Below are positions 1,961-7,332 of a DNA stretch of 33,718 bases, in pieces. A program made the position numbers and the translations under genes. Each line of letters opens with the position of its first letter. Position 1 is the first letter of the stretch. The DNA comes from a virus: positions 1 to 33,718 of IMG/VR virus record IMGVR_UViG_3300030085_000821; one strand, given 5' to 3'. Below the pieces are notes generated by a model. It searched no databases and was not told where the DNA came from. It saw nothing but the letters and a program-made list of their open reading frames with translations.

Positions 1961-2588
1961 TACTTTTAGCTCCTTCACTCTTTAAAGTTTTCATGCGTGC
2001 TTGGCATTTTCCTTTGATGTCTTGGAAAATCTCAGGAAACTCTTTGTTGGCGATGTCCATGTACTTTTTGGTGAACTCAGCGTTCATCCAATCGTCTATC
2101 TGTTTCCTGTTAAACTCTGGCAGGAAAGCGTCCGCTTGCTGTTGCAGTTCCAACAGACTGCTTGGCGGCTCCTTTGCCGGCGGTAGGCTGGCGATAGCTT
2201 CTTCCTTTCTCCCTACGCCATCCATCTCATTTGCTGACGCATACTCACCGCCAGCTAGGCCTAGCGATGCCAAGGCACGGCCAATGGCAGATGTCTCACA
2301 GTTCTCCAAGGCGCTAGTCTTGTTGACGTTGCCTTGCCCCCTGATCTCTTCTGCCATGCCGGCACCAATCACCGCGCCGTCCATGTTGAGTATCTTGGCT
2401 TTGACCACGACACGCTGGCCGTCATCCACCAAGATGTGTGTGTCCACCCCAAAGTCGGTGCCGTGCATCTGCCGGAACGCTTCCATTCGATGCACCACCT
2501 GGGTGTACTTCTTGCCGCCGCGCTGAGTTACGCCATGACTATGGTTCAACTCAGACACAAGGGTCATAGTTTTTTTCAAGTCTGCCAT
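1953..2588 (-). CDS. Putative single-strand annealing/recombination protein
   Basis: 211 aa, started at ATG 2586-2588 (MADLKKTMTLVSEL), which has GGGAGA upstream. The segment NKTSALENCETSAIGRALAS (near residues 88-107) followed by GGEYASANEM is a signature I associate with a phage family found beside exonucleases and SSBs and often labelled ERF-like or ssDNA-binding. A Pro/Ser linker and a helical C-terminus follow. Operon context (PD-(D/E)XK exonuclease upstream, SSB-like protein immediately downstream) supports a Redβ/Erf-type role in annealing ssDNA. The exact family is uncertain. It overlaps the upstream DpdA-like gene's stop. Confidence 0.62.
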   Translation of the reverse strand: MADLKKTMTLVSELNHSHGVTQRGGKKYTQVVHRMEAFRQMHGTDFGVDTHILVDDGQRVVVKAKILNMDGAVIGAGMAEEIRGQGNVNKTSALENCETSAIGRALASLGLAGGEYASANEMDGVGRKEEAIASLPPAKEPPSSLLELQQQADAFLPEFNRKQIDDWMNAEFTKKYMDIANKEFPEIFQDIKGKCQARMKTLKSEGAKSNG

Positions 2589-3274
2589 GCTGTTCTCCCG
2601 AACATTGATTGTTGCACAGGATGCGGCTCCCAAAACAATGGTGTTTGGATGCCATCAATTTTTCGAGCCATCTTTTCTGGACACCTGTCGTAATCTTTGA
2701 AGTTGCGTGCCACATTCACACTGTCGGCGCTGGCAAACGGCCACCGTTCACCACCAAGTGACAAGCCTCTAAGCATGTGTATCCACGGCATCCTGCGGTG
2801 TTTTTGTGCCAGCTTGTTAAAAGCCGCGTCGGCTCTTGAACACCAAGCGTCTGATCCGACATTCCAGTATTCACCGCTGGAGCCAAAGCACACCTTGCCA
2901 TAGTGGTCTGTCAGATACATGAGGTAGTCAAACGACATAGCCATGTGCCAGACAGGTGCGCCAAACTCAGGCCCAAACGGCCACTCAGAAAGCAAATCTC
3001 TCTGCTGTTCTTCATCACCGCCAATCACATCAGGGATCACAGCCCAATGCGGGTGTGCCACCTTGTCCTCCAGCCAAGCGTACAGTTTAGTGCGATCAAG
3101 CTGCTTGCCCTGTGTGTAGGTTGTGAAAGCGCCGTTGTCCCACATGATTGACTGCCCTATCTCCATGCAAGTTTGGGCCTGTAAAGGGTTCGCAAAACTT
3201 ACACAGAAGTGCTTGCCAGCCATGCGATACAGCATTGCTTTCGGGGTCAGCGGTGTGCCGTGGTAGTGGATCAT
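2576..3274 (-). CDS. dpdA: DpdA-like (TGT superfamily) 7-deazaguanine DNA transglycosylase
   Basis: 232 aa from ATG 3272-3274 (MIHYHGTPLTPKAM), in a TAATG overlap with the upstream stop; a GTG at 3286 is an alternative. The tRNA-guanine-transglycosylase superfamily core appears as WDNGAFTTY (Asp46, comparable to the TGT D-S/T-G-G-F/Y base-binding motif), HWAVIPDVIGG (Asp82, a candidate nucleophile or second active-site Asp), a CFGSSGEYW strand and LRGLSLGGERWPFASADS near the C-terminus. The last is typical of phage DpdA-type proteins. No zinc-binding CxCxxC cluster of tRNA TGTs is seen, and the protein is shorter than a tRNA TGT (about 370 aa). Known DpdA enzymes exchange guanine in DNA for preQ0 or related bases. 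The YhhQ-type transporter two genes upstream supports this reading. Confidence 0.72.
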   Translation of the reverse strand: MIHYHGTPLTPKAMLYRMAGKHFCVSFANPLQAQTCMEIGQSIMWDNGAFTTYTQGKQLDRTKLYAWLEDKVAHPHWAVIPDVIGGDEEQQRDLLSEWPFGPEFGAPVWHMAMSFDYLMYLTDHYGKVCFGSSGEYWNVGSDAWCSRADAAFNKLAQKHRRMPWIHMLRGLSLGGERWPFASADSVNVARNFKDYDRCPEKMARKIDGIQTPLFWEPHPVQQSMFGRTAWQT

Positions 3275-3528
3275 TACGGATGCCACTCTGATACTATTTG
3301 CACCGTGTTGTGAGTCGCTGTCAGTTGCCCACTCTCAAACATGAATGTCTCAGAGAGAAAAGCCGCTAAGTCCTCTTGGAAGATTGGCTGATGATCGCCA
3401 ACACAAGCTGCTTGGATGTCTTCAACTAAGACTTTGCGATGTGAACGCAACTCCAACAGATAACGAATGGTGCTGCCATCGACAGGACACAAACGCGCGA
3501 AACTTACGTTATATGTATGACGCATCAC
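3274..3528 (-). CDS. Unknown 84-aa protein between dpdA-like and yhhQ-like genes
   Basis: Starts ATGATG (3523-3528); either codon may be used. It is overlapped at both ends by its neighbours (yhhQ-like stop 3509, dpdA-like start 3274), so it is firmly within the putative 7-deazaguanine operon. The sequence has FARLCPVDGSTIRYLLEL, then VLVEDIQAAC, QEDLAAFLSETF and GQLTATHNTVQI. The strand-strand-helix-strand pattern faintly recalls tunnelling-fold enzymes (QueD, QueF), but the length is short and the usual His/Cys/Glu active-site sets are not clear. A role in handling the modified base is inferred from position only. Confidence 0.75.
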   Translation of the reverse strand: MMRHTYNVSFARLCPVDGSTIRYLLELRSHRKVLVEDIQAACVGDHQPIFQEDLAAFLSETFMFESGQLTATHNTVQIVSEWHP

Positions 3529-4000
3529 TTTTCCTTTTCAGCATGTAGTAAACAGCTAACGCGCCAAGCATTTTGCTGACGACCATGACAAAGAACCCAT
3601 ACCAGCTAAAAAAGCCAAGCATGAGCATGAACACAGCACTGTCTGCCGGTGTACTTACGGCTGATGAGATCAGGATACGCTCCTTGATCGGCTTGCCGCT
3701 GTAGGTATAGACAGCCCAATCAACCAGTTCGCTGATGGCAAAGGCTACCGCACTGGCAAAGGCGACGAATGGATCTGCAAGCAGGTAACTCAGAACCAAA
3801 CCTATCGTCATCGGGATGAATACTTTGTGTCCCAAGTCACGCTGTGCAAAGTCTCTCAAGACAAACACAAAGCCAACAAGCAAGCTCATCGGTGCGAACA
3901 TCTCGCCGCCTGGTAATGGGATCATGGGGATGTAGGTGAAACCTACGTTTGCCACCACGATTGCGCCAACATAATAGGCGCTTGTCATGTAGCTATTCAT
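3509..4000 (-). CDS. yhhQ: YhhQ/VUT family queuosine-precursor (preQ0/preQ1) transporter
   Basis: 163 aa, an integral membrane protein with about five or six hydrophobic segments. Family features are the start segment YYVGAIVVANVGFTYIP, the VFVLRDFAQRDLGHKVF loop, the helix AFAISELVDWAVYTY, the PADSAVFMLML motif and VVSKMLGALAVYYMLKRK at the end. E. coli YhhQ imports preQ0 and preQ1, and phage copies are known beside 7-deazaguanine DNA-modification genes. No queCDE genes are seen in this genome, so the phage would scavenge the base rather than make it. ATG 3998-4000 overlaps the upstream stop (ATGAATAG), and the 3' end overlaps the next gene by 20 bases. Confidence 0.87.
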   Translation of the reverse strand: MNSYMTSAYYVGAIVVANVGFTYIPMIPLPGGEMFAPMSLLVGFVFVLRDFAQRDLGHKVFIPMTIGLVLSYLLADPFVAFASAVAFAISELVDWAVYTYSGKPIKERILISSAVSTPADSAVFMLMLGFFSWYGFFVMVVSKMLGALAVYYMLKRKSDASYI

Positions 4001-5909: not shown

Positions 5910-6057
5910 CGGCTCTGGCTGGGTGCGTGTAGCGTCTAGCTGGGACGAGGGTGATGTGGTGCCCGACCTTTGCTGGGAGTGTAACGGTAGCGGCAAGCAT
6001 CAAGAGCCCGAAGCGTTTGATGAATGTGATATCGACAAGCAGGGTGCGTTGAAGTGA
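5875..6057 (+). CDS. DnaJ-like zinc-finger peptide
   Basis: 60 aa with two CxxCxGxG-type modules, CQDCNGSGW (about residues 8-16) and CWECNGSGK (about 33-41), the zinc-binding unit of DnaJ central domains. It binds one zinc by inference. It starts inside the end of the repressor gene (overlap 35 bases) and ends in a GTGA overlap with the methyltransferase, so it is coupled to both. Single-repeat DnaJ-like peptides occur widely in phages with no assigned function. Confidence 0.78.
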   Translation: MTSSPKKCQDCNGSGWVRVASSWDEGDVVPDLCWECNGSGKHQEPEAFDECDIDKQGALK

Positions 6058-6965
6058 AACCACTGCGGTTGCTAGACCTTTTTTCTGGCATAGGTGGCTT
6101 TAGCTATGCTGCTGAAAAGCTGGTTGGCGGCTATGAAACAGTTGCCTTTTGCGAGTGTGACGAACACGCACAGAAGGTTTTGCGAAAGCATTGGCCGCGT
6201 ACAGAGATCATTGGGGATATCAGGGAACTTGCAGATGACGCAGATCGATTTAGAGGAATGGTTGACATCATCACAGGTGGATACCCCTGCCAGCCCTTCT
6301 CGCTTGCCGGGGTCAGACGAGGCGATCAAGATGACCGACATCTCTGGCCGGAGATGCTTAGGGTTATCAAAGCTGTGCGGCCCCGCTGGGTCATTGGAGA
6401 AAATGTTGCTGGGCACATCACTTTGGGCCTCGACACGGTGCTATCTGACCTGGAAGCCGCAGGCTACGACAGCCGGTGCTACGTTATACCGGCTGTTGCC
6501 GCAGATGCCCCGCACAGACGAGATCGATGTTGGGTTGTTGGGTACTCCGACAGCAGCTGCGAATCAGATGTCACCTTCAATGAGGAAATGCGGGTGGCAG
6601 GGGCCAAAGATGTGGGCAACACCAGCCGCAGCAGATTGCCAAGGCACAACAGACGGCAGTCAGGGCAAAAGTTTGCGCACAGATGTAAAGATGTGGCCGA
6701 CGCCGGCAGCCAGCGACAACAGAGACAGGGGCCACATGGGCATGCCGTCAATCCAGCGCAGGATGGAGAAGGGCAAGCAACTGAACCTTTCAATGGTGAT
6801 CTCTCAAAAGTCTGGCAGCCTGAACCCGAATTGGGTCGAGTGGCTCATGGGATACCCGGTCGGGTACACCGACTTAAACAACTAGGAAACAGCATTGTGC
6901 CGCAAGTAGCGGCGCGTATTCTTTACGCCATAAGGGAAGCAGATTGTGGGCAAGATGCAGCGTAG
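6054..6965 (+). CDS. DNA (cytosine-5) methyltransferase
   Basis: 303 aa from GTG 6054 (GTGA overlap with the upstream stop). C5-MTase motifs in order: DLFSGIGGF (motif I, residues 8-16), GGYPCQPFS (motif IV, catalytic Cys79), GENVAGH (motif VI, 115-121), PHRRDR (motif VIII, 153-158) and LGNSIVPQ (motif X, 277-284). The region between motifs VIII and X is the target-recognition domain and is low in recognisable structure (QRQQRQGPHGHA). It transfers a methyl group from AdoMet to C5 of cytosine and probably protects phage DNA. The target sequence is unknown. The 3' half is also open in frame +1 with a methyltransferase-like protein sequence (see 6094-6885). It overlaps the next gene by 20 bases. 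Confidence 0.93.
   Translation: MKPLRLLDLFSGIGGFSYAAEKLVGGYETVAFCECDEHAQKVLRKHWPRTEIIGDIRELADDADRFRGMVDIITGGYPCQPFSLAGVRRGDQDDRHLWPEMLRVIKAVRPRWVIGENVAGHITLGLDTVLSDLEAAGYDSRCYVIPAVAADAPHRRDRCWVVGYSDSSCESDVTFNEEMRVAGAKDVGNTSRSRLPRHNRRQSGQKFAHRCKDVADAGSQRQQRQGPHGHAVNPAQDGEGQATEPFNGDLSKVWQPEPELGRVAHGIPGRVHRLKQLGNSIVPQVAARILYAIREADCGQDAA
6094..6885 (+). other. Overlapping +1-frame ORF resembling a second MTase C-terminus
   Basis: This 263-codon open frame (GTG start at 6094) lies entirely within the methyltransferase gene. Its last half reads LTWKPQATTAGATLYRLLP, GLLGTPTAAANQMSPSM, KMWATPAAAD, KMWPTPAASDNRDRG and LNPNWVEWLMGYPVGYTDL. These segments are, from memory, typical of the C-terminal region of many phage cytosine methyltransferases. 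The same DNA in frame 0 gives GRVAHGIPGRVHRLKQLGN, also a typical MTase ending. Possible readings are an overprinted second protein, a frameshift-fused product, or a homology relic left by an ancient frameshift between two MTase classes. I do not call it an established gene. Confidence 0.35.
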
Positions 6966-7332
6966 CAAAGGCTCTGCCTTTGAAAGATGGTGTGTCAACG
7001 AGATCAAGGACCACCTGGGCTATGAGAATGTGCGCAGGAACCTTTCTCAATATCAGGAGAAGGGCGGCGCTGATATCCTGATCCCGCACTGGTCCATCGA
7101 ATGTAAAAGATACGCCACAGGGCCACATGGCGGGGCTGACGCATGGTGGCACCAAGCTGTGAACGCTGCTGGCGACCTTTCTCCGCTACTGATTTACAAG
7201 TATGACCGCCACGATCCGGTGTGCAAGCTGTACCTGCGCCATGTAAACCCTGAGTTTACCGGCACCGATGCAACGGTTCTCGTTTCTCTGCCGACATGGT
7301 TCTACATAGCACGCGAGGCGATCCCATTCTGA
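6946..7332 (+). CDS. Holliday-junction-resolvase-like PD-(D/E)XK nuclease
   Basis: 128 aa; GTG 6946 is chosen because AGGGAAG lies five bases upstream (ATG 6955 is the alternative). The fold markers are KGSAFERWCVNEI (catalytic Glu in the first helix), NLSQYQEKGGADILIP (Asp) and WSIECKRYA (E-x-K), the order seen in Hjc-type and related resolvases and in phage nucleases of this size. A WWHQAVNAAG helix and a core strand PLLIYKYDR follow. It would cut branched DNA during recombination or before packaging. It is the last gene of the repressor operon. Confidence 0.72.
   Translation: MGKMQRSKGSAFERWCVNEIKDHLGYENVRRNLSQYQEKGGADILIPHWSIECKRYATGPHGGADAWWHQAVNAAGDLSPLLIYKYDRHDPVCKLYLRHVNPEFTGTDATVLVSLPTWFYIAREAIPF

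Follow-up and report, generated by a model that had tools for sequence, protein, structure and literature searches.

A nested gene pair in a phage contig that probably encodes a two-subunit DNA cytosine-5 methyltransferase in two reading frames

The Methyltransferase Locus

The window, i.e., the whole stretch of DNA analysed here (33,718 nucleotides), is the IMG/VR virus contig IMGVR_UViG_3300030085_000821, whose other genes include those for a terminase, a head-tail adaptor and major head and tail proteins. It contains a gene, alpha, in frame 0 and a second gene, beta, nested within it in the +1 frame (Table 1). Alpha matches PF00145 (Pfam) over residues 5-173 (E 9e-40) and also TIGR00675 (NCBIfam), and the phage "DNA methyltransferase" family phrog_363 covers its residues 2-297, almost the whole length (E 6e-77). 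The confident parts of its AlphaFold model are residues 1-170, the catalytic domain, and residues 270-302, the motif X helix, and Foldseek relates the model to the large catalytic domain of M.HhaI (E 2.9e-12) and M.HaeIII. Judged from the model, only the small domain, comprising the recognition region and motif IX, appears to be missing. The layout of a monomeric C5 methyltransferase (PF00145) is not found here: the Pfam match stops at residue 173, and residues 171-268 are predicted to be disordered and are without motif IX.

Table 1. Features of the alpha/beta locus, with positions in the window.
Feature	Positions	Strand	Remarks
Putative alpha subunit gene	6054..6965	+	303 aa, GTG start, frame 0; C5-cytosine methyltransferase catalytic domain with motifs I-VIII and X, without motif IX
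Alpha motif I (LDLFSGIGGF)	6072..6101	+	sequence reading; alpha alignment A2
Upstream part of the +1 open reading frame, not part of beta	6094..6234	+	open by chance; relatives have +1 stops there; no excess +1 similarity in codons 1-60
Shine-Dalgarno-like AGGGA	6221..6225	+	inside alpha codons, ahead of the beta ATG
Putative beta subunit gene	6235..6885	+	216 aa, ATG start, nested in alpha in the +1 frame; phrog_1008 match, stop and similarity tests
Alpha motif IV with catalytic Cys79 (GGYPCQPFS)	6276..6302	+	P78, C79 and Q80 invariant in A2
Alpha motif VI (ENVAGH)	6399..6416	+	E116, N117 and V118 invariant in A2
Alpha motif VIII region (HRRDRCWVV)	6513..6539	+	A2 and sequence reading
Beta cassette 1 (GTPTAAANQMSPSMRKCGWQGPKM)	6541..6612	+	cassette parsing, sequence reading
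Alpha residues 171-268, weakly conserved, predicted disordered	6564..6857	+	reads through the putative recognition region and motif IX of beta; pLDDT about 35-46
Beta cassette 2 (WATPAAADCQGTTDGSQGKSLRTDVKM)	6613..6693	+	frame 0 gives DVGNTS across its start
Beta cassette 3 (WPTPAASDNRDRG...QKSGS)	6694..6819	+	frame 0 gives DVADAG across its start
Beta motif IX (LNPNWVEWLMGYPVGYTDL)	6820..6876	+	G194, L196, N197, P198, L204, M205 and G206 invariant in beta alignment A1
Alpha pre-X element and motif X (GRVAHGIPGRVHRLKQLGNSIVPQVA)	6834..6911	+	first part overprinted on motif IX; A2, sequence reading

A first-pass annotation of this DNA had claimed that a methyltransferase can be read here in two frames. 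Every peptide that it quoted is present, and the two frames match separate phage methyltransferase families: the +1 translation has a methyltransferase match of its own, to phrog_1008 (E 3.5e-34), a phage "DNA methyltransferase" family distinct from phrog_363. Beta has no model in Pfam or NCBIfam and no sequence match among the solved structures of the PDB; modelled alone it reached a mean pLDDT of 57, a poor model of which the fold is uninformative.

The end of alpha is overlapped by 20 bases by a PDDEXK_15 / RusA-like nuclease gene (window 6946-7332, + strand), a homologue of which lies inside the fetched flank in 31 of 90 relatives. Elsewhere in the window, a queuine tRNA-ribosyltransferase-like gene (2576-3286, - strand; phrog_887, E 1.5e-38) lies near a gene (3509-4000, - strand) with a sub-threshold match to Vut_1/YhhQ, a family of queuosine-precursor transporters. 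These two genes may form a 7-deazaguanine DNA-modification pair, with which the phage would modify its DNA in a second way.

The Start of the Nested Gene

The +1 frame contains an open run of 263 codons, between 6094 and 6885, that ends in LNPNWVEWLMGYPVGYTDLNN. The first-pass annotation had reported this open run and its openness stands, but not its extent as a gene, which we place from ATG 6235 onward. We gathered 90 distinct relatives of full length from IMG/VR and from annotated phages. Most of them carry +1 stops at alpha codons 52-59, and the first 47 of the 263 codons must, therefore, be open in the window by luck. The open reading frame from GTG 6094 was consequently rejected as the true gene, since these 47 codons precede a conserved start and most relatives have stops in this stretch.

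This start, an ATG at alpha codon 57-70, occurs in 82 of the 90 relatives; of the eight without the expected ATG, five have GTG or TTG there and three have no candidate start. A Shine-Dalgarno match of at least four bases precedes the beta ATG in 90% of the 82 relatives, vs. 43% after recoding of alpha and 37% at other out-of-frame ATGs. The combination of ATG and Shine-Dalgarno match is conserved at codon 60-65, though its exact position varies between clades. In the annotation of Paenibacillus phage Shelly this nested gene is listed as "g55 internal gene", 184 bases downstream of the alpha start (181 in the window), and in phage Bloom both genes are annotated as cytosine methyltransferases.

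Selection on Both Reading Frames

When the synonymous codons of alpha were permuted in the window alone, none of 3000 permutations left the 263-codon +1 run open; from codon 64 on, 6.75 stops in the +1 frame are expected and there are none. All 90 relatives keep the +1 frame open between alpha codon 64 and the last codon of beta, with no stops where 540 are expected by the same permutation, whereas the third frame (+2), used as control, contains 1176 stops vs. 1224 expected. In a second test, in which pairs of relatives were recoded synonymously in alpha and their +1 translations compared, the +1 similarity lay far above the recoded value wherever beta is encoded: the median z was 4.6 over the catalytic part of alpha, 2.2 over the variable part and 5.0 over the part with motif IX. 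No excess was found upstream (z 0.0) or downstream (z 0.2) of beta. The first-pass annotation had proposed looking for frame-specific constraint across relatives, and by the stop counts as well as by recoding the +1 frame is indeed under selection within the limits of beta.

One could suppose that the +1 similarity is a by-product of alpha conservation and codon bias and that the database matches of beta are mis-framed predictions, a supposition to which the frequent lack of annotation of beta homologues and the absence of a beta model from Pfam and NCBIfam would lend themselves. However, synonymous recoding of alpha destroys the +1 similarity and adds stops, and it has no effect outside the beta limits. 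The two recoding tests thus rule out a by-product of alpha codons, and we attach practically no likelihood to it.

The reverse test, in which beta was recoded and the constraint on alpha measured, revealed that alpha is constrained beyond what beta imposes in its catalytic part (z 11.9) and its C-terminal part (z 3.9) and only weakly so in its variable part (z 1.8; identity 0.19 vs. 0.16 expected from beta alone). Alpha stops are absent vs. 158, 220 and 45 expected, the 220 belonging to the variable part. From the stop counts and the forward and reverse recoding tests it follows, therefore, that both frames are under selection. The dual coding appears to be uneven, with the variable region of alpha hardly constrained as a protein; the amino acids of this part would be chosen mainly for beta, so that alpha would merely have to stay open.

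Distribution of the Nested Pair

The 80 best matches of beta in bacterial genomes, which by their titles represent about 13 phyla (including Bacillota, Pseudomonadota, Bacteroidota, Actinomycetota, Acidobacteriota, Chloroflexota, Nitrospirota, Desulfobacterota, and Patescibacteria), all overlap an alpha in another frame; 79 were scored as +1, and the remaining one (L215) is +1 except for a local frame break. In an even sample of Pseudomonadota, searched with a beta profile of our own, beta was found in 24 of 398 genomes including the seed genome, and all fetched beta loci were nested, even those of very weak relatives. For the Bacillota the sample yielded beta in 4 of 299 genomes, again including the seed genome (phrog_1008). 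A DNA survey of viral contigs for WVEWLMG gave 118 matches, 99 of them +1 to alpha and 115 with motif X in the alpha frame. A stand-alone beta gene was not seen among the best bacterial-genome matches, in the viral contigs or in the Pseudomonadota sample. One chromosome, that of a Roseovarius MAG (OX638333.1), carries five identical copies of the nested pair (L178-L182), which probably represent repeated prophages or an assembly duplication.

The first-pass annotation had offered overprinting with both products in use as one of two explanations, and this is strongly supported by the selection in two frames, the conserved internal start and the universal co-occurrence of alpha and beta.

Division of the Motifs between the Two Frames

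Within LNPNWVEWLMGYPVGYTDL the residues L-N-P...L-M-G are invariant across 61 sequences. We identify this segment as motif IX from its place before motif X, from its LxP...L(M/Q)G(F/Y)P pattern, which marks motif IX in the methyltransferase family, and from the arrangement in one relative (L269), in which the segment stands in frame in a single chain with motifs I-VIII and X. Alpha carries motifs I-VIII and X, and beta the putative recognition region and motif IX. The partition differs among relatives, yet the set of motifs is always complete. In L199 (2281-3580) and L327 (3280-4153, reverse strand) beta carries both IX and X, a split like that of M.AquI, with the genes overlapping; in L269 (734-1787, reverse strand) alpha carries IX and X and beta consists of cassettes only. 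L199 and L269 are single contigs, and for each of them, taken alone, an assembly error is possible. In another relative (L235, 3063-3215) the motif IX and X frames are scrambled at a GA-rich tract encoding RERERER, which may reflect either slippage-driven phase variation or an assembly error.

The endings of the two chains, GRVAHGIPGRVHRLKQLGN of alpha (preceding motif X) and LNPNWVEWLMGYPVGYTDL of beta, are superimposed on the same bases in 223 distinct genes and not superimposed in about 28 relatives (three further relatives scored as lacking the overlap are overlaps missed by the motif pattern). Where non-overlapping genes were read through (L192, L199, and L327), both endings are present, the pre-X element following motif IX, and in L334 and others they likewise follow one another on separate DNA. 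Because both occur in series in relatives, the endings are different parts of the protein and not frameshifted copies of one part. The alternative put forward in the first-pass annotation was that an ancient frameshift links two widespread C-terminal classes of methyltransferases and that the gene in the window preserves an intermediate state. The coincidence of both endings on the same bases in the window would fit this suggestion, as would the switching of motif IX between frames in L199, L269, and L327. However, the side-by-side endings in about 28 relatives refute such a homology, and an arrangement that spans about 13 phyla is not transitional. We consider it highly improbable; the endings are better seen as different elements of one enzyme.

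The overlap leaves a trace in alpha. In 223 of 223 overlapped genes RVA is followed by H, N, D or Y, and in non-overlapped ones usually by T, since Met-Gly in beta (ATG G) forces a NAT codon in alpha. The "AHGVP" signature of alpha is thus an imprint of the Met-Gly codons of beta, and because the imprint tracks the overlap of motif IX and the pre-X element, "RVAHGVP" endings can serve as a fingerprint of a hidden beta.

A programmed +1 frameshift out of alpha, resulting in a fused catalytic-recognition chain, could in principle also deliver beta, the +1 frame being continuous with alpha on the mRNA and L269 showing that motif IX can sit in the alpha chain. However, beta is under selection for about 100 codons over the catalytic domain of alpha, which a downstream frameshift would not need, and its ATG and Shine-Dalgarno match are kept despite the shifts in exact position between clades. 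We regard frameshifting as improbable, and independent initiation of beta as the better explanation.

Cassettes in Beta

The part of beta that follows its N-terminal 100 residues and precedes motif IX consists of one to eight segments that start with W(P/A)TPxAxD and often end with LxxxVxM; the beta of the window has three. From 129 genes we parsed 366 of these cassettes, which represent about 158 types in 115 distinct orders, and one cassette type occurs at differing ordinal positions with differing neighbours. Pairs of the same type are more similar in beta than in the alpha frame in 99% of cases (mean 0.81 vs. 0.52). Some same-type cassettes have a DNA identity of 0.80-1.00 between genes that are only 0.39-0.64 identical in the preceding region. 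The mean DNA identity overall is equal for cassettes and preceding region (0.76 each) and, therefore, only some of the pairs demonstrate recent exchange.

From their position between motifs VIII and IX, the cassettes are probably the recognition region, and by analogy with the multispecific enzymes of Bacillus phages each of them may confer one specificity. Beta could then be a shuffling array of interchangeable DNA-recognition cassettes, swapped by phages in both frames at once, through which one catalytic subunit would methylate several sequences; we give this idea slightly less than an even chance. If true, the locus would be a combinatorial, overprinted specificity locus that annotation pipelines have largely overlooked.

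Proposed Mechanism and Significance

Our results indicate that the locus is very probably an overprinted gene pair for a two-subunit DNA cytosine-5 methyltransferase. Translation of alpha would begin at GTG 6054, and ribosomes would initiate beta independently of it at ATG 6235, in the +1 frame, with the help of the Shine-Dalgarno site embedded in the alpha codons. Alpha would contribute the AdoMet-binding and catalytic domain (motifs I-VIII, with Cys79) and the motif X helix, while its residues from about 171 to 268 would mostly be a tether that must stay open for motif X to be reached. Beta would contribute the DNA-recognition region, here of three cassettes, and motif IX, and the two chains would assemble into one working enzyme, which most likely marks the DNA of the phage itself against host restriction.

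Extended overlaps between genes on one strand of bacterial or phage DNA are often put down to annotation noise. The present pair has about 200 codons that are read in two frames, each of them under selection, and it spans about 13 phyla; the precedent enzyme, M.EcoHK31I, has been shown to need both chains. The nested pair is ancient, occurs widely and is composed of swappable cassettes for which a role in DNA recognition is probable. Pfam and NCBIfam have no model for beta, and its genes often go unannotated. Many entries named "DNA cytosine methyltransferase" may, therefore, represent only half of an enzyme, the specificity of which resides in an unannotated frame; cloning or specificity prediction that failed for such genes could be explained in this way. 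Genes with a nested beta can be found simply by the [H/N/D/Y]-G-[V/I]-P signature of alpha.

Comparison with Known Methyltransferases

The beta polypeptide of M.EcoHK31I (176 aa) is encoded inside the alpha gene but in a different frame, an arrangement reportedly described in 1995 and shared by the beta of the window. Two polypeptides are needed for M.EcoHK31I, the larger subunit having motifs I-VIII and X and the smaller one motif IX (PMC3404938). Alpha and beta of the window have the same motif split, a likeness in layout to M.EcoHK31I and its isospecific relative M.EaeI, and by this motif content we place the locus in the M.EcoHK31I kind of split C5 methyltransferase. However, M.EcoHK31I is part of a restriction-modification system and recognises YGGCCR, whereas the locus in the window is that of a phage; its recognition domain has been predicted in the larger subunit, whereas our evidence points to recognition cassettes in beta. 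The literature that we searched seems to contain no report of how widely the pair is distributed, of its obligate nesting, of the imprint that beta leaves in alpha or of cassette arrays in beta.

M.AquI is also a C5 methyltransferase of two polypeptides that assemble, as alpha and beta presumably do, but its small subunit contains motif X as well as motif IX (PMC3404938). Motif X of the window is in alpha, and an AquI-like split was found only in L199 and L327, there with overlapping genes. M.HhaI and M.HaeIII, of which the large catalytic domain matches alpha, differ in having the recognition domain and motif IX in the same single chain. The multispecific C5 methyltransferases of Bacillus phages contain arrays of several variable recognition modules (PMC12707154). 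Beta contains tandem, shuffling cassettes, for which a role in recognition seems probable; the Bacillus phage enzymes, however, are single polypeptides, and the array in the window is located in a second subunit in the +1 frame and not in the catalytic chain.
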